This document shows positions 49,064 to 57,619 of a stretch of DNA of 64,000 bases, piece after piece. Each line of letters opens with the position of its first letter. Position 1 is the first letter of the stretch. This DNA comes from Sulfuritalea sp. (lineage in GTDB: Bacteria; Pseudomonadota; Gammaproteobacteria; Burkholderiales; Rhodocyclaceae). The position numbers and the translations under genes are program-made. Under the pieces are notes generated by a model. It ran no database searches. It had not been told where the DNA came from and was given only the letters and a program-made list of their open reading frames with translations. Where the stretch lies: contig JALHPU010000021.1 in the NCBI GenBank assembly GCA_022842325.1, positions 1 to 64,000 of the forward strand, in the 5' to 3' direction.

Positions 49064-50761
49064 TCAGGAAATGCGGGTAAATTCGATGCGATCGTAGTCC
49101 GGTCCGCGGTCGAGCAAGGACTTGAGGCGCAGCCGCCAGAGTCCCGATTCGCTGCGGACATCGACCTCGATGTCGTCGGCGAAACTGCCCGCGGGCAGTA
49201 TAAGCTCGCCGCCCTTCTCGCTGACGATGATGGCATCCGTCCAGCCGTGGCCGCCGCCGTCAGCCGCCCGGGTCCAGGCACTTTCCTCGCCGACCGGTTT
49301 GGCCTGGGCGCAGATCGATGGCCAGGCCAGGGTTTCAATGCCGATGCTGGGGCGGTTCGCGGCATCGCGGCCGATGCGGCGGATCAGGCCCAGGCGCCAA
49401 TCCAGGCCGTCGACTTCGCGCATACAGATCAGCAAACCGATGCGATGGCGCGGCAACACCGCAGGCACCACGGCGCCCAGCCCCGTCGTACTCGAGTCCA
49501 CCTGCGTCCAGCTTTCCATCTGGGCCTCGTCGCCGCCGGATTCCAGCCGGCGCAAAATCTCGATCGGCGTCTTCGCCGCCGCCGGCTCCCTGGCTGCGGT
49601 CGCGGCCGCCTTGGTCGTCTCGTCCTCTGGCGCGACGGTGCCGAAACGGGCATCGTCGAACATCTGGGTGACCACAGTGCCCTCGTACTCGAACGAGCGG
49701 CCCATGCGGGCGAAATGCGCAGCGGCGATCATGCGCCGCGCCAGGCCGAAACCGAGCACGACCCGCAGTTCGCCCGCATGGCTGACGCGATCGTTGCCGC
49801 GCGTGGGTGGCGCCTGTGCCCAATGGTTCATCAGGATCAGGATGGTGCCTTCGATCTGTTCACGGCTGGCGGGGACCTGCGCCAGCCATTCGGGCGCTTC
49901 GTGCGGCCTTTTCACCTGAGCGGCAAGCCGCAGCACTGCGCCGCGCAGCTTGCGTACCGAGCAGTAACGGACGCTGCCGCCGCCCTGGTCGCCCTGCTTC
50001 AGCCGTAGCGGGCCCAAGGCCGCAGCGAGGTCGATGCGGTCGGTACTCAACTCATCGGGCTGCGAACTCAGGTCGAGACCATCGCTGGCGCGCAGGAAAC
50101 GCTCGGCGAATTCCAGTTGCTGCGGCACCACGTTGCCGACCGGCACGAACTCGAGATAAAGCCCGATCAGGTACTCGCCCAGCGGTGTCGATTCTGCGTC
50201 GTTGCGATAAGGCGCGACGCGAGTTTTCAGCAGGCCCAGGCGATTCAGTATCTGGAGCAGGTCGTGGGCCTCCTGCCACAGTTCCGCGTCCGGAGTGCGA
50301 TAGCGGAAACGTTGCAGCTTCTTGCGCAAGGCCCAGGCCATCAGCGCACGCGCGGCACAGCGGGCGGTACGCAGCTTGTCGTCGTCCGTGGCGAGTTCGA
50401 TCGATGTGTTCAGGAATGACCGGTAGCAGCGGAACAGATGGGCGGCATGGGTATCCAGCGTGGTCCACACCGAGTCCGCCAGGTATTCGCGCTCGCCGAC
50501 CGACAGGTAGCGCGTAAGCAACTGCACCGCGCTGGGCCTGGAGAACTGGTCCAGCCGGGCCAGTGCCCGCAGCGCCAGCTTGGGGCCGATTTCGGCAACG
50601 GTGGCATCGAGCCCGGCCAGCGACTCATCGACGTCGAACAGCAAGCGCCGCGAGTCGGACTGCGGGATGTCGGCCATCAGGGCGTTCAGGCTCGCGTCCG
50701 AAGCCCAAGGGTGGTCCGACGTCTTCTTTTCCTGGAACCGTGAGAGGAACTTGTTGAACAC
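49064..50761 (-). CDS. Unknown 565-residue protein, C-terminal beta-barrel-like domain
   Basis: A large soluble protein without signal peptide or membrane helices. The first 330 residues are mainly helical with Leu/Arg-rich stretches ([25 protein letters not shown] is one of several). The C-terminal third is predicted beta-rich; [26 protein letters not shown] resembles PilZ-like barrels that bind cyclic di-GMP, but the RxxxR and D/NxSxxG motifs are not convincing. It ends eight bases before rpiA. A middle Ala/Thr/Glu-rich linker lies near residues 375-395. The function is unknown. Confidence 0.7.
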
Positions 50762-50787: not shown

Positions 50788-52587
50788 TCATTTTTTGCGC
50801 ATCGGCGGCAGGTCGGTGCAGGAACCGTGCGCGACCTCGGCCGCCATGCCGATGGTTTCGCCCAGGGTAGGATGCGGATGGATGGTCTTGCCGATATCCA
50901 CCGCATCGGCCCCCATTTCGATGGCCAGCGCGACTTCGCCGATCATGTCGCCGGCATTGGGGCCGACGATGCTGCCGCCGATCACGCGATGGGTTTCTTC
51001 GTCGAACACCAGTTTGGTGAAGCCGTAGTCGGCACCGTTGGCGATCGCGCGGCCGGAGGCCGCCCAAGGGAACTTGGCAACGCTGACTTTGCGCCCGGCT
51101 TTCTTCGCCTCGTCTTCGCCGACGCCAACCCAGGCCACTTCCGGATGGGTGTAAGCGACGCCGGGGATCACTGTCGCATCAAAATGGCTCTTCTGCCCCG
51201 CCGCCGCTTCGGCCGCAACGTGGGCCTCATGCACCGCCTTGTGCGCCAACATCGGCTGGCCGACGATGTCGCCGATGGCGAAGATGTGTGGAACATTGGT
51301 ACGCATCTGGCTGTCGACGGGGATGAAGCCGCGCTCGTTCACCGTCACGCCGGCTTTCTCGGCGCCTATCTTCCTGCCGTTCGGCGAGCGGCCCGCCGAC
51401 TGCAAAATCATGTCGTAACGTTGCGCTTCGGCCGGCGCCTGCTCGCCTTCGAACTTGACCCAGAGGCCGTCGGGTTTGGCGTCAACAGCAACGGTCCTGG
51501 TCTTCAGCATGACCTTGTCGAAACGTTTGGCGTTCTGCTTTTCCCAGACCTTGACCAGGTCGCGATCCGGCCCCTGCATCAGGCCGTCGAGCATTTCTAC
51601 CACATCGACTTTTGCGCCCAGCGTCGAATACACGGTGGCCATTTCGAGGCCGATGATGCCGCCGCCGATGACCAGCATTCGCTTCGGCATGAAGCGCAGC
51701 TCCAGCGCGCCGGTGGAATCGACGATGCGCGGGTCTTTCGGGATGAAGGGCAGGTGGAAGGCCGCGGAACCGGCAGCGATGATGCATTTCTGGAAGCGGA
51801 TCACCTTCTTCTCGCCGGTCTTCTCCTGTGCGCTGCCGGTCATGGCCTCGACTTCAAGATGGTTGGCGTCGAGGAAGTGGCCGTAGCCGCGCACGGTCTC
51901 GACCTTGCGCGCCTTGGCCATGCCGGAGAGGCCGCCGGTGAGCTTGCCGACCACCTTGTCCTTGTGCGCACGCAGCTTGTCGACATCGACCTTGGGCGCG
52001 GCGAAACTGACACCCAGGTCGCTCGCATGCTCGGCCTCTTCGATCACCGCGGCGACATGCAGCAAAGCCTTGGACGGAATGCAGCCGACGTTGAGGCAAA
52101 CGCCGCCCAGGGTGGCGTAGCGTTCGACGATGACGGTCTTCATGCCGAGGTCGGCGGCGCGGAAGGCGGCCGAGTAGCCGCCGGGGCCGGCGCCGAGCAC
52201 CAGCATTTCGCATTCGAGATCGACCTTGCCGGCGAACTTGCCAACTGCGCTGCCGGCGACGGGTGCCGCTACCGGCGCCGCGACGGGAGCCGCAGGCGCG
52301 GGGGCCGTGACCGGCGCCGGAGCGGGTGCAGCCGCCGTAGCGCCAGCGCCGACTTTTACCAAAGCGACCAGCGTACCTTCGGCCACCTTGTCGCCGACCT
52401 TGATCTTCAGTTCCGTCACAACACCCGAGACCGGCGACGGCACATCCATGGTGGCCTTGTCCGATTCGAGGGTGATCAGCGAATCCTCGGCCTTGACCGT
52501 GTCGCCGACCTTGACCAGCACTTCGATCACCGGCACATCCTTGAAGTCGCCGATGTCGGGTACTTTCACTTCAACGCTGTCACTCAT
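50788..52587 (-). CDS. lpdA: Dihydrolipoamide dehydrogenase with N-terminal lipoyl domain
   Basis: E3 of pyruvate dehydrogenase; reoxidises dihydrolipoamide with FAD and NAD. ATG 52587 follows AAGGAG and gives 599 residues. Residues 1-75 form a lipoyl domain ([11 protein letters not shown] carries the lipoylated Lys), an Ala/Pro linker follows, then the flavoprotein with [11 protein letters not shown], the redox disulfide CLNVGC near residue 163 and [10 protein letters not shown]. Extra lipoyl domains on E3 occur in Ralstonia and Neisseria. It overlaps the upstream proteasome-like gene by eight bases. Confidence 0.95.
52334..52357 (-). repeat. Dispersed repeat core in the lpdA linker
   Basis: Minus strand AAAAGTCGGCGCTGGCGCTACGGC, the closest match to the consensus core; it encodes the linker start KVGAGATA. 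Confidence 0.5.
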
Positions 52588-53161
52588 TTGACTCTCCTTC
52601 CAGCTTGAACTCATAGACCACGATCGGCGGTCCGGAGGATGTATCGAATTCAATGCCGGCGGCGACGCCGGCATTGGCGATCTCCGCCGCCGTCAGCGGG
52701 CCGTCATAAAGCGCGTACATTGCGCCGAGGGCAAAGCTGCGACCGGAGCCGGCGGACCAGACGCGGTCAAATTCGAACACCTCGCGGTACGAATACACGC
52801 CGTAGATGCCGGTGCTGTTGGCGATCAGGGCGGTGATCTGCGAACTCTCGTAGGGATCGTCTTCGTCTTCCTTGGTATTTAGAAAGGCGTGTTCCTTGAG
52901 GATCGGGTGCAGACGGCGGAAGGTTTCATAGACTTCCATGCGCGAACCCAGCTTCACGTCCTCCAGCCTGGAGAAGGCCGAAAGCAGCACCAGGTGGTGC
53001 GCCGAGGACCCGCAGATGCCGATCTTCGAGCCGGCGATGTCGAGGATCTTGTCGTGCTCGCCCTTGTAGCTGCGCGGCAGGCGGGTATCGCCGAAGGTGG
53101 TGAGGCCGTCGGCGGCAATGGCGACTTGGGTACCCTTCTTGACTACGGTGAGCGTGGTCAC
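52580..53161 (-). CDS. Proteasome-like Ntn-hydrolase (BPH/HslV-related) inside the pdh operon
   Basis: A 193-residue protein of the proteasome beta/HslV fold, probably the betaproteobacterial proteasome homologue (BPH). After loss of Met1 the N-terminal nucleophile is Thr2 ([10 protein letters not shown]). Asp18 in IAADG and Lys38 in HDKIL align with the catalytic Asp17 and Lys33 of Hsl[10 protein letters not shown] and [15 protein letters not shown] match its later active-site loops with the Ser. No HslU-like ATPase is adjacent. The start overlaps aceF (ATGA) and the end overlaps lpdA, so it is translated with the pyruvate dehydrogenase genes. Substrates are unknown. Fold assignment is strong; BPH identity is from memory of the family. 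Confidence 0.82.
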
Positions 53162-54882
53162 AACATGCTTCTCCGCATGTCGGCCAGCAGCTGCGCCAGA
53201 TAGACGTTGAAGCGCGTCGCCAGCGCGCCGTCGATCACGCGATGGTCGGCGGTCAGCGACAGCGGCAGGATCAGCCGCGGAGCAAAGGCCTTGCCGTCCC
53301 AGACCGGCTTCATCGCCGACTTGTTGACGCCGAGGATCGCCACTTCCGGCGCATTGACGATGGGCGCGAAGTAGGTACCGCCGATACCGCCGAGGCTGGA
53401 GATGGTGAAGCAGGCACCCTGCATGTCGGCCGGCTTCAGCTTGCCTTCACGGGCCTGTTTGGCCAGTTCGCCGCTTTCCTTCGCCAGTTCGAAGACGCCC
53501 TTGCTATCCGCGTTCTTGATCACCGGCACCATCAGGCCGTTCGGCGTGTCGGCGGCGAAGCCGATGTTGAAGTACTTCTTCAGCACCAGGTTGTCGCCGT
53601 CGATCGACGAGTTGAACTCGGGATACTTCTGCATCGCCTTGACACAGGCCTTGATCAGGAAGGCGAGCATGGTCAGCTTGGCGCCACCGGCCTTTTCATT
53701 CTCCTTGTTGACCTGGACGCGGAAGGCTTCGAGGTCGGTGATGTCGGCGTCCTCGTGGTAAGTGACGGCCGGGATCATGACCCAGTTGCGCGACAGGTTG
53801 GCGCCGGAAATCTTCTTGATGCGCGACAGCGGCTGCACGTCGATGGCGCCGAACTTGGAGAAGTCGATCTTCGGCCACGGCAGCAGGTCGAGCCCAACCC
53901 CCGAACCTGAAGCAGGCGCGGCAGCAGGTGCCGCCGCCGCGCTGACCACGCCCTTGACCCAGGCCTGGACGTCGCTCTGCATGATGCGTCCCTTGGGGCC
54001 GCTGCCCGGTACCTTGGCGATATCGACGCCCAGTTCGCGCGCAAAGCGGCGCACCGATGGGCTGGCATGGGCCGCCCGGCCGGATATCCGGTCCGCCGGC
54101 GTCGGCATGGCGACACGCGGCTGGGCGGAGATCAGGTCGGCATCGCCGGGCCGGAAGTCAGCCGCCGCACCACCCGTCGCTGGCACAGCAGCAGCTGCCA
54201 GCGCCGCTTGTGGTGCCGCGCTCGCCGCAGCCGGAGCAGCGGCCGGCGCCGCTGCAGCCACAACCGCCGTAGCGCCAGCGCCGTCCCCGGGGATACCGCT
54301 TTGCATAACTCTTACCAGCGCCAGTACCACGCCCTCGGCTACCTTGTCGCCGACCTTCACCCTCAGCTCGGTGACGACGCCCGAAACCGGCGAGGGAATA
54401 TCCATGGTCGCCTTGTCCGATTCCAGGGTCATCAGGGAGTCCTCGGCTTTCACCGTGTCGCCGACCTTGACCAGCAACTCGATGATCGGCACATCCTTGA
54501 AATCGCCGATGTCGGGCACCTTGACCTCGATCACGGTTGCCGCAGCGGCGGGCGCGGCAACTGGCGCGGCGGCGGCGGGCTGAGCACTCGGTGCCGCAGC
54601 GGGTGCGGCGGCGGCAGGCGCGGCGGCGACCTGCCCGGCAGCAGCGCTGTCGATCAGCGCGACGAGGCTGCCTTCAGCGACCTTGTCGCCGATTTTCAAC
54701 TTGAGTTCGGTGACCACGCCGGAAACCGGCGACGGTACGTCCATGGTCGCCTTGTCGGATTCCAGCGTCACCAGCGAATCCTCGGCCTTCACGGTGTCGC
54801 CTACCTTGACCAGCAGCTCGATCACCGGCACGTCCTTGAAGTCGCCGATGTCCGGGACTTTCACTTCGACTATGTTGGCCAT
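53158..54882 (-). CDS. aceF: Dihydrolipoamide acetyltransferase (E2) of pyruvate dehydrogenase
   Basis: Core of the pyruvate dehydrogenase complex; moves the acetyl group to CoA. It is 574 residues. Two nearly identical lipoyl domains (about 1-75 and 115-190) each carry SDKATMD; a subunit-binding domain (ASPSVRRFARELGVDI) lies near residue 275, and the catalytic domain ends with DHRVIDGALATRF. Ala/Pro linkers separate them. Residues about 189-206 (MQSGIPGDGAGATAVV) replace ordinary linker sequence and are encoded by a dispersed repeat copy. It lies three bases after aceE. Confidence 0.95.
   Translation of the reverse strand: MANIVEVKVPDIGDFKDVPVIELLVKVGDTVKAEDSLVTLESDKATMDVPSPVSGVVTELKLKIGDKVAEGSLVALIDSAAAGQVAAAPAAAAPAAAPSAQPAAAAPVAAPAAAATVIEVKVPDIGDFKDVPIIELLVKVGDTVKAEDSLMTLESDKATMDIPSPVSGVVTELRVKVGDKVAEGVVLALVRVMQSGIPGDGAGATAVVAAAAPAAAPAAASAAPQAALAAAAVPATGGAAADFRPGDADLISAQPRVAMPTPADRISGRAAHASPSVRRFARELGVDIAKVPGSGPKGRIMQSDVQAWVKGVVSAAAAPAAAPASGSGVGLDLLPWPKIDFSKFGAIDVQPLSRIKKISGANLSRNWVMIPAVTYHEDADITDLEAFRVQVNKENEKAGGAKLTMLAFLIKACVKAMQKYPEFNSSIDGDNLVLKKYFNIGFAADTPNGLMVPVIKNADSKGVFELAKESGELAKQAREGKLKPADMQGACFTISSLGGIGGTYFAPIVNAPEVAILGVNKSAMKPVWDGKAFAPRLILPLSLTADHRVIDGALATRFNVYLAQLLADMRRSML
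54263..54315 (-). repeat. Dispersed repeat copy in aceF linker
   Basis: Minus strand: AGTTAT, GCAAAGC, GGTATCCC, GGACGGCGCTGGCGCTACG in this order. The same blocks occur between genes at 20805-20867. It encodes the non-Ala/Pro segment of the linker after lipoyl domain 2. Confidence 0.6.
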
Positions 54883-54885
54883 GGC

Positions 54886-57558
54886 TTACACCTTCACCGG
54901 ATTGGGCTTGTTCGGATCGAGGCCGTATTTTTTGATCGCCTCGGCCACTTTCTCTTTCTTCATCTGGCCGTCTTCGACCAGCGCAGACAGCGCCGCGAGG
55001 GTGATCCAGTAGCGATCCACCTCGAAGAAGTGGCGCAGCTTCTCGCGCGTGTCCGAACGGCCGAAGCCGTCGGTACCGAGCACCGTGTAATGGCGCGGCA
55101 CCAGCGAACGGATCTGCTCGGCGAAGACGCGGATGTAGTCGGTCGCCGCGATCACCGGCCCGCGTGTTTCGGCAAGGCAGGCGGAAACATGCGGCACACG
55201 CGGCTTTTCGGTCGGATGCAGCAGATTCCAGCGCGCGCAGTCGTTGCCGTCGCGCGCCAGTTCGTTGAAGCTGGGACAGGACCAGAGATCGGCCTCCACG
55301 CCCCAGTCCTTCTTCAGCAAGTCGGCGGCGGCAATCGCCTCCATGAAGATGGTGCCGGAGCCGAGCAGCTGCACGCGCGCCCCGTTACTGGCAGCGCCCT
55401 TCCTGAACTGGTACATGCCCTTGAGGATGTCCGGTGCCGCGCCTTCCGCCATTGCCGGATGCTCGTAGTTCTCGTTCATCACCGTCAGGTAATAGAAGAC
55501 ATCTTCCTGCTCGGTGACCATGCGGCGCAGGCCGTCCTGCACGATCACGGCAACCTCGTAGGCGAAGGTCGGGTCGTAGGAAATGCAGTTCGGCACGGTG
55601 CCGGCCAGCACTTGCGAATGACCATCCTCATGCTGCAGGCCCTCGCCGTTGAGCGTGGTGCGCCCGGCGGTGCCGCCGACCAGGAAGCCACGCGCGCGCT
55701 GGTCGCCCGCGGCCCAGACCAGGTCCATGGTGCGCTGCATGCCGAACATCGAATAGCAGACATAGACCGGGATCATCTGCACGCCGTGCGTCGAGTAGCT
55801 GGTGCCGGCGGCGATCCAGTCGGCCATGGCGCCGGCCTCGTTGATGCCTTCCTGCAGGATCTGGCCGTTCTTGGTTTCCTTGTAGAACATCATCTGGTCG
55901 GCATCCTGCGGCACGTAGTTCTGGCCGTCCTGGTTCCAGATGCCGATCTGGCGGAACAGGCCTTCCATGCCGAAGGTGCGCGATTCGTCGACCACGATCG
56001 GCACCACGCGCTTGCCGATGACCTTGTCCTTGAGCATGACGTTGAGGCCGCGCACGAAGGACATCGTGGTGGAGAATTCGCGCCCCTCGCCGCCGGCCTT
56101 GAGCAGGGCGTCGAAGGCGGACAGCGGCGGCACTGGCAGCGACTCGGCCTTGCGTCGGCGCGCGGGCGAATAGCCGCCCAGCGCCATGCGCCGCTCGCGC
56201 ATGTAATTGAGTTCCTTGGAGCCTTCGGGGAAGGTCAGGTAGGGCAGCTTTTCCAGCTCCTCGTCCTTGACCGGCAGCTTGAAGCGGTCGCGGAAGGCCT
56301 TGACCGAGGTGGTGCCCATCTTTTTCTGCTGGTGGGTGATGTTCATCGCCTCGCCTGCCTCGCCCATGCCATAACCCTTGATGGTCTTGGCCAGGATCAC
56401 CGTCGGCTGTCCGCTGTGCGCCACTGCCGCTGCGTAGGCCGCATAGACCTTGTGCGGGTCGTGGCCGCCGCGGTTCAGGCGCCAGATGTCGTCATCGGAC
56501 CAGGTCGACACGAGCTTCGCCAGCTCCGGGTACTTGCCGAAGAAGTGCTGGCGCACATAGGCGCCGTCGCGCGCCTTGAAGGTCTGGTAATCGCCGTCGA
56601 CGCACTCCATCATGCGCTGGCGCAACAGGCCGGTCTTGTCCTGCGCCAGCAGCGGATCCCAGTAGCTGCCCCAGATCACCTTGATCACGTTCCAGCCGGC
56701 ACCGCGGAAATCGGACTCGAGTTCCTGGATGATCTTGCCGTTGCCGCGCACCGGGCCGTCAAGGCGCTGCAGGTTGCAATTGATCACGAAGATCAGGTTG
56801 TCGAGACGCTCGCGCCCGGCCATGCCGATGGCGCCCATCGACTCCGGTTCGTCCATCTCGCCGTCGCCCATGAAGGCCCACACCTTGCGGTTGTCGGTGG
56901 GAATCATTTCGCGGTGCTGCATGTACTTCATGAAGCGCGCCTGGTAGATCGCCTGCAGCGGACCGAGGCCCATCGATACTGTCGGGAACTGCCAGAAGTC
57001 CGGCATCAGCCAGGGGTGGGGATAGGAGGACAGGCCCTTGCCGTCGACCTCGCGGCGGAAATTGTCCATCTGCTCCTCGGTCAGACGGCCGAGCATGAAG
57101 GCGCGCGCATAGGTGCCCGGCGCCGAATGGCCCTGCGACAGCACCAGATCGCCGCCGTGCGTGTCGGACGGTGCGTGCCAGAAGTGGTTGAAGCCAATGT
57201 CATAGAGCGTAGCCGCCGAGGCATAGCTGGCGATGTGGCCGCCAAGGCCGGAATCGTCCTTGTTGGCGCGCAGCACCATGACCAGCGCGTTCCAGCGCGC
57301 GTAGTCACGGATCTTCTGTTCCATCTCGTAGTCGCCGGGCGTGACCGGCTGCTGGTCGGCGGGAATGGTGTTGGTGTATTCGGTGTTGGCGCTGTAGGGC
57401 ATGTTGATGCCGGTCTGGTGACCCAGCGCAATCAATTGTTCGAGCAGGAAATGCGCTCGCTCGGGGCCTTCCTGCGCGATCACGGCTTCCAGCGCGTCAA
57501 GCCATTCACGGGTTTCCTGCGGATCGGCGTCGGAAGACGCGAGTTGGGGCGCAGCCAT
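54886..57558 (-). CDS. aceE: Pyruvate dehydrogenase E1, homodimeric AceE
   Basis: Thiamine-dependent decarboxylase of the complex. ATG 57558 follows GAGGAGAAG and gives 890 residues. The TPP motif starts GDGEMDEPESMGAIGMAG and ends with NCN; SYPHPWLMPDFWQFPT and SQGHSAPGTYAR line the active site. It is the first gene of aceE-aceF-BPH-lpdA. The leader before it (to about 57820) contains tandem 73-base repeats. Confidence 0.96.
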   Translation of the reverse strand: MAAPQLASSDADPQETREWLDALEAVIAQEGPERAHFLLEQLIALGHQTGINMPYSANTEYTNTIPADQQPVTPGDYEMEQKIRDYARWNALVMVLRANKDDSGLGGHIASYASAATLYDIGFNHFWHAPSDTHGGDLVLSQGHSAPGTYARAFMLGRLTEEQMDNFRREVDGKGLSSYPHPWLMPDFWQFPTVSMGLGPLQAIYQARFMKYMQHREMIPTDNRKVWAFMGDGEMDEPESMGAIGMAGRERLDNLIFVINCNLQRLDGPVRGNGKIIQELESDFRGAGWNVIKVIWGSYWDPLLAQDKTGLLRQRMMECVDGDYQTFKARDGAYVRQHFFGKYPELAKLVSTWSDDDIWRLNRGGHDPHKVYAAYAAAVAHSGQPTVILAKTIKGYGMGEAGEAMNITHQQKKMGTTSVKAFRDRFKLPVKDEELEKLPYLTFPEGSKELNYMRERRMALGGYSPARRRKAESLPVPPLSAFDALLKAGGEGREFSTTMSFVRGLNVMLKDKVIGKRVVPIVVDESRTFGMEGLFRQIGIWNQDGQNYVPQDADQMMFYKETKNGQILQEGINEAGAMADWIAAGTSYSTHGVQMIPVYVCYSMFGMQRTMDLVWAAGDQRARGFLVGGTAGRTTLNGEGLQHEDGHSQVLAGTVPNCISYDPTFAYEVAVIVQDGLRRMVTEQEDVFYYLTVMNENYEHPAMAEGAAPDILKGMYQFRKGAASNGARVQLLGSGTIFMEAIAAADLLKKDWGVEADLWSCPSFNELARDGNDCARWNLLHPTEKPRVPHVSACLAETRGPVIAATDYIRVFAEQIRSLVPRHYTVLGTDGFGRSDTREKLRHFFEVDRYWITLAALSALVEDGQMKKEKVAEAIKKYGLDPNKPNPVKV

Positions 57559-57619
57559 GACTTCTCCTCGTACTGACATTATTGGAGTCCGCCGCACGTC
57601 GTCGCTGCGGACTATCTCG

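Follow-up and report, generated by a model that had tools for sequence, protein, structure and literature searches.

Does the position of a proteasome-like peptidase gene inside a pyruvate dehydrogenase complex (PDC) operon indicate what the peptidase does? This question is raised by a 64,000-nt stretch of DNA from a Sulfuritalea species (contig JALHPU010000021.1; here called the window), in which a small ORF lies between aceF and lpdA. A preliminary description of this DNA had recognized a relative of Anbu, BPH (beta-proteobacterial proteasome homologue) and HslV, and had suggested that the protein might act on lipoyl-enzyme assembly, damaged E1/E2 or acetyl-CoA supply, or might simply share expression with the operon. 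Both the BPH family and its place in the PDC operon are already published, a point absent from the preliminary description, and the window gene is unexceptional in both respects. The family has solved structures, yet no known substrate.

The BPH gene and its junctions

The features of the operon are listed in Table 1. Reading of the junctions confirmed the overlaps with aceF and lpdA that had been described before: the aceF stop codon TGA is contained in GTGA, the first four bases of the BPH ORF, and the ATG of lpdA at position 52587 lies ahead of the BPH stop codon. The BPH start codon (GTG in 22, ATG in one and TTG in one of 24 loci) directly precedes a Thr codon, i.e. there is no propeptide, and this Thr2 would be expected to serve as the N-terminal nucleophile once Met is removed. 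The aceF-BPH-lpdA arrangement was present in 24 of 25 loci from the window genome and 24 genomes of the same genus, while the remaining locus begins inside BPH. This recurrence, together with a phmmer E value of 2.2e-60 and a dN/dS of about 0.095, argues against a chance ORF.

Table 1. Location of the BPH gene, its neighbors and their junctions in the window
Feature	Coordinates	Strand	Basis and remarks
BPH gene	52580..53161	-	193 aa, GTG start; phmmer homology and catalytic residues
aceF stop / BPH start overlap (GTGA)	53158..53161	-	4 nt, read from sequence
Shine-Dalgarno-like GGAG for BPH	53171..53174	-	within last aceF codons
BPH end / lpdA start overlap (ATGAGTGA)	52580..52587	-	8 nt, read from sequence
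Shine-Dalgarno-like AAGGAG for lpdA	52594..52599	-	within last BPH codons
aceF, pyruvate dehydrogenase E2, two lipoyl domains	53158..54882	-	TIGR01348 681.7 bits, PF00198, PF00364 twice
lpdA, E3 with N-terminal lipoyl domain	50788..52587	-	TIGR01350 485.9 bits; PF00364 near N-terminus; scanned product included one extra codon in front
aceE, E1	54886..57597	-	TIGR00759 1526.9 bits; true start perhaps slightly downstream of ORF start

Two further observations concern the neighboring genes. At the DNA level, the 240-nt lipoyl stretch of lpdA (52341-52580) shares 78% and 80% identity with its two counterparts in aceF (54297-54536 and 54636-54875), pointing to duplication or gene conversion. Following lpdA, a 565-aa ORF (49064-50761, reverse strand) had no match in Pfam, NCBIfam or PHROGs; among the 46 PDC-linked loci of more than 8 kb, 12 have a homologue of it after lpdA.

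Identity of the product

The 193-aa product is, by homology and catalytic residues, a BPH, an N-terminal-threonine peptidase of the proteasome family. In a phmmer search of the PDB it matched 5ovu (E 2.2e-60, 206.8 bits, residues 2-192) and 5ovs (E 1.1e-37, 132.9 bits, residues 2-187), with the best HslV far behind at 21.2 bits. The choice among the three relatives named earlier thus fell on BPH. HslV was rejected since the NCBIfam scores (31.2 bits against a cut-off of 137, and 28.7 against 157.75 for a second HslV model) remained below threshold and no hslU is adjacent, and Anbu was rejected because all ten PDB sequences matched at E values up to 1 were BPH or HslV. The archaeal beta-subunit model of NCBIfam reached 19.8 bits against a cut-off of 224, and PHROGs returned phrog_1040 ("peptidase HslV family", E 4e-16, 60.4 bits). 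A Pfam search gave no match at E 0.001; with this result and NCBIfam scores only below threshold, BPH genes could escape automatic annotation.

Catalytic residues, pore loop and group-marking positions

The window protein carries Thr2, Asp18 and Lys38, as the preliminary description had stated, as well as Gly51 and Ser139 (counting Met), the published catalytic set being Thr1, Asp17, Lys37, Gly50 and Ser139 in Thiobacillus denitrificans numbering (PMC5777263). It also has a long acidic pore loop with a net charge of -5. Residues were compared among five groups of BPHs defined by genomic context, PDC (26 rows, including the displaced locus L053), Hsp33 (26), Hsp15 (7), PabB (7) and ArgG (22). 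Lys38 and Gly51 were invariant throughout. Thr2 and Lys38, whose loss in close relatives would have spoken against the peptidase described earlier, were kept in 26/26 PDC rows. Asp18 was replaced by Glu in two PDC rows (L071 and L077), Thr2 by Ser in one ArgG row, and Ser139 was altered in one Hsp33 row and three ArgG rows.

The pore loop was similar, not identical, across groups, with mean net charges of -4.7 (PDC), -6.4 (Hsp33), -5.7 (Hsp15) and -6.0 (PabB); its end, DDPYESSQ or a near variant, recurred in these four groups when up to eight rows per group were compared, and the ArgG group has an acidic loop of its own (-4.4). Other positions mark the groups. Column 53, which we take to lie in the S1 pocket (proteasome numbering), is Ser or Thr in 22/26 PDC rows, whereas 58/62 rows in the remaining four groups have Ala there. 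Column 125 is Tyr in 23/26 PDC rows and elsewhere mostly Met, Leu, His or Gln, Gln20 marks 22/26 Hsp33 rows, and distinct residues set the ArgG group apart at columns 22, 23, 54, 55, 108, 127 and 135. Since the context groups differ at these columns, specialization by operon is possible.

Distribution and genomic contexts

BPH was detected in 24 of the 30 other Sulfuritalea genomes and, with the window genome included, in 26/199 genomes of the family, 157/399 genomes of the order (E 0.001) and 46/369 genomes of a class sample (E 1e-10). In one case (G794:C1:1041124-1041689) the match fell into three pieces and probably represents a broken gene. In the class sample, each of the 29 loci retrieved from beyond the order carried Ser instead of Thr, in line with the Ser reported for BPHs outside Betaproteobacteria (PMC5777263). 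So did four of the 219 loci (L218, L219, L221 and L231), which came from the order search; the consulted parts of that paper contain no mention of Ser-type BPHs within the order (Burkholderiales in GTDB). Two of the genomes concerned (G376 and G338, with L219 and L221) additionally encode a Thr-type copy beside argG (L220 and L222).

The neighbors in the 219 loci, among which some genomes occur twice by two routes and near relatives of the window are over-represented, were PDC genes (112), divergent pabB (32), hsp33 (26), argG (24), hsp15 (10), the 565-aa ORF (3) or others (12); a search for related loci kept the best 80 of at least 489 relatives. Neighbors were assigned by direct tblastn, and one representative per neighbor family was checked by Pfam. 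The hsp15 gene was provisionally named from an S4 domain match. For BPH gene contexts, Fuchs et al. 2017 cite an earlier source (their reference 14), probably Valas and Bourne 2008. Among loci L083-L111 and L220-L248, the pabB-divergent group comes mostly from Gallionella, Sideroxydans, Gallionellaceae or Nitrosomonadales, and in another group BPH is flanked by yajQ and by argG, the latter with or without ppnP. The 29 loci from outside the order gave no match to the reference neighbor genes within 1.5 kb.

Conservation of the aceF-BPH-lpdA order, a check proposed earlier, was borne out: 110 of the 112 PDC loci (duplicates included) have aceF before and lpdA after BPH on the same strand, and in the other two, L026 and L059 from a single contig, the sequence starts within BPH. 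The PDC linkage extends over seven family codes (f1, f3, f8, f10, f20, f31 and f49). Three prevailing contexts, argG with neighbors, the PDC operon and Hsp33, are described by Fuchs et al. 2017 (PMC5777263), whose consulted parts do not mention pabB, hsp15 or yajQ/ppnP as neighbors; such contexts are typical of BPH but do not define it. The homologues discussed in the consulted parts of Fuchs et al. 2021 (PMC8665760) are reported to have no genomic context suggestive of function. A literature search, with most subscription papers outside its reach, found no further paper joining BPH with PDC.

A probable single capture followed by apparent losses

A tree was built from 98 of the 219 loci (length at least 175 aa; thinned within the same context at 82% identity in the PDC and PabB groups and 90% in the others). 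One branch of this unrooted tree, with support 100/97, separated all 25 PDC-linked rows plus the displaced L053 from the other rows, and 12 context changes were counted against 58.4 in shuffles, a contrast to which near-copies contribute. Because the PDC-linked rows group together, the simplest reading is that BPH entered the slot between aceF and lpdA once and was then inherited in the seven family codes; the direction of this putative capture is an assumption since the root was not inferred. Independent captures into the slot would have spoken for a functional link; none were found, the rows forming one group only.

Six Sulfuritalea genomes are devoid of BPH. Two of them have 47 (L161) and 44 nt (L163) between aceF and lpdA, and these stretches are similar to the opening and closing codons of BPH, with the lpdA start region kept (genomes G013 and G004, respectively). 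These junctions are apparent deletion scars that left aceF and lpdA in place, and they offer a natural comparison of PDC with and without BPH inside one genus. In the others the site is hidden by a contig end (L162, L170 and L183) or lpdA has no match (one genome). Twelve BPH-less genomes from other genera in the family were checked: the aceF-lpdA gap measures -4 to 18 nt in ten, and the other two (L171 and L179) encode an LpdA without a lipoyl domain. Overall, aceF lies beside lpdA in 17 of the 20 BPH-less relatives with sufficient contig reach. A lipoyl-bearing LpdA as the reason for BPH was unsupported, as 19 of the 21 uncut lpdA loci in BPH-less relatives encode one. In genome G098, the displaced BPH is flanked by a glycosyltransferase-41 gene and a homologue of the 565-aa ORF, and the aceF-lpdA pair is found on another contig without BPH; as the contig that carries this BPH measures only 5,167 nt, the displacement could reflect faulty binning or assembly.

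Selection and translational coupling

For BPH, the median pairwise dN/dS in Sulfuritalea was 0.095 (253 pairs from 23 loci, a set without L024 and the partial L026). The final 200 codons of aceF gave 0.093 (231 pairs from 22 loci), and some 430 codons of lpdA, the linker among them, gave 0.152 (210 pairs from 21 loci). Judged by these values, BPH is under purifying selection in this genus. GGAG occurs no more than 18 nt ahead of the BPH start in all 24 Sulfuritalea loci (L002-L025) and is absent from the aceF tails of the two scar genomes. A Shine-Dalgarno-like word for lpdA was found in 22 of the 24 loci (in L004 and L012 the lpdA start was not located by the script), and the word GGAAGG persists in both scars. 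Among 66 distinct PDC-linked BPH genes, 49 showed the 4-nt aceF overlap by a script heuristic, and in 49 the lpdA start overlapped the BPH end when the first possible start codon was taken. The overlaps and Shine-Dalgarno-like sites suggest that translation of BPH is coupled to that of the PDC genes.

What the operon says about function

Biochemical information on BPH comes from Fuchs et al. 2017 (PMC5777263), as far as the consulted parts of that paper go. The structures of the Cupriavidus metallidurans and T. denitrificans proteins are tetradecameric double rings in which epoxomicin binds Thr1. Both proteins were inert on peptides and casein, so that the term peptidase rests on fold and inhibitor binding, and carbonylation patterns were unchanged by BPH, leaving a stress role with no direct support. 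We favor, with a probability of about 0.65, the reading that BPH is a housekeeping peptidase acting independently of an ATPase, and that its tie to PDC lies in expression and not in any proven substrate. By analogy with the two solved BPHs, removal of the start Met would expose Thr1, and 14 subunits would assemble into a double ring that encloses the active sites and has an acidic pore loop. The protein would need no dedicated ATPase and would act on unfolded or short peptides, presumably in a housekeeping or stress role. Its place between aceF and lpdA is most simply explained by one ancestral capture, and the overlaps together with the Shine-Dalgarno-like site in the aceF tail would couple its translation to PDC and provide steady expression. 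Other groups are likewise fixed beside hsp33, hsp15, argG-yajQ and pabB, which argues that the operon shows how BPH is expressed and not what it cuts. With neighborhoods that differ by group and catalytic residues that are largely constant, the operon is a poor guide to the substrate.

A peptidase dedicated to PDC, which would control the quality of or process damaged E1, E2 or E3, for example at Ala/Pro-rich lipoyl linkers, and be co-translated to match PDC amounts, appears unlikely to us. It would account for the same slot in 110/112 PDC-linked loci of seven family codes, for purifying selection like that on aceF and for the group-specific residues at columns 53 and 125, and the consulted parts of PMC5777263 state that PDC subunits are prone to carbonylation and then degraded in a regulated way. 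However, the linkage appears to have one origin, so that its conservation may reflect descent alone, the pull-downs from C. metallidurans, which has a PDC-linked BPH, contained no PDC subunit (PMC5777263), and BPH-less relatives mostly retain the lipoyl-bearing LpdA. BPH was apparently lost by deletion in two genomes and displaced in one, three groups that are not linked to PDC have a similar pore loop, and the catalytic residues match those of BPHs from unrelated operons. A variant, in which the PDC-group BPH became such a co-translated quality-control peptidase after the single capture, its pocket being retuned (column 53 from Ala to Ser/Thr, Tyr at column 125), seems slightly less probable still. 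A general role with PDC-tied expression is favored over a PDC-specific one on account of the slot conserved by descent, the differing contexts, the patchy presence and the deletion scars, even though retention of the slot across several families is a counterpoint. The interpretation offered in the preliminary description is thus partly supported: shared expression fits best, while a PDC-specific role found no positive support in pull-downs, residues or BPH-less relatives.

Similarly doubtful, at about the level of the retuned pocket, is the possibility that HslU or another general AAA+ protein such as ClpX, encoded elsewhere in the genome, unfolds substrates for BPH. The absence of an adjacent ATPase gene, noted before, held for the scanned neighbors aceE, aceF, lpdA and the 565-aa ORF, and the window genome has adjacent hslV and hslU on contig C18, apart from BPH on C21. 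Descent of BPH from HslV (PMC5777263) would suit HslU as a partner, and HslU was commoner in BPH-bearing genomes (136/152 versus 158/247, Fisher p 6e-9, raw counts that ignore phylogeny), hence a link is possible, although the raw association may itself come from phylogeny. Five weak order-level matches (E 5e-6 to 7e-4) were dropped from the 157 for this comparison. Against it, 16 of the 152 BPH genomes, several listed as 97-100% complete, had no HslU match in a search at E 1e-50 that scored the first four candidates per genome and may have missed a few; BPH can persist without HslU, and HslU as an obligatory partner is unsupported. The consulted parts of PMC5777263 report that HslU-interface residues are not conserved in BPH, that HslU was not in the C. 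metallidurans pull-downs and that no partner ATPase was found. Least probable by far is a passenger gene that acts mainly as a coupling spacer for lpdA translation, its protein mattering little. The lpdA Shine-Dalgarno-like site does sit in the BPH tail and such a word is kept in both scars, but a dN/dS of 0.095 and conserved catalytic residues indicate that the protein is selected, and the ten BPH-less family members of other genera manage with the short aceF-lpdA gaps given above.

Comparison with known systems

The closest solved structure is 5ovu, which we infer to be the C. metallidurans BPH (Rmet_1198, PMC5777263) because its two chains and EDEDD loop fit the consulted text of that paper, the PDB table giving no organism. 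It shares with the window protein the Thr nucleophile, the acidic pore loop and an operon with three PDC genes, and only sequence differences were seen. Entries 5ovs and 5ovt, which by the same fit appear to be the T. denitrificans BPH, belong to the same family (E 1.1e-37) and have Thr1, Asp17 and Lys37 in common with it; unlike the PDC-linked window gene, the T. denitrificans gene is linked to argG (PMC5777263), a context resembling the argG-linked group of the present survey. HslV is a distant homologue with which BPH shares the N-terminal Thr, Asp and Lys, but HslV of the window genome has HslU beside it, whereas BPH has none. Anbu and the beta subunits of the 20S proteasome belong to the same superfamily.
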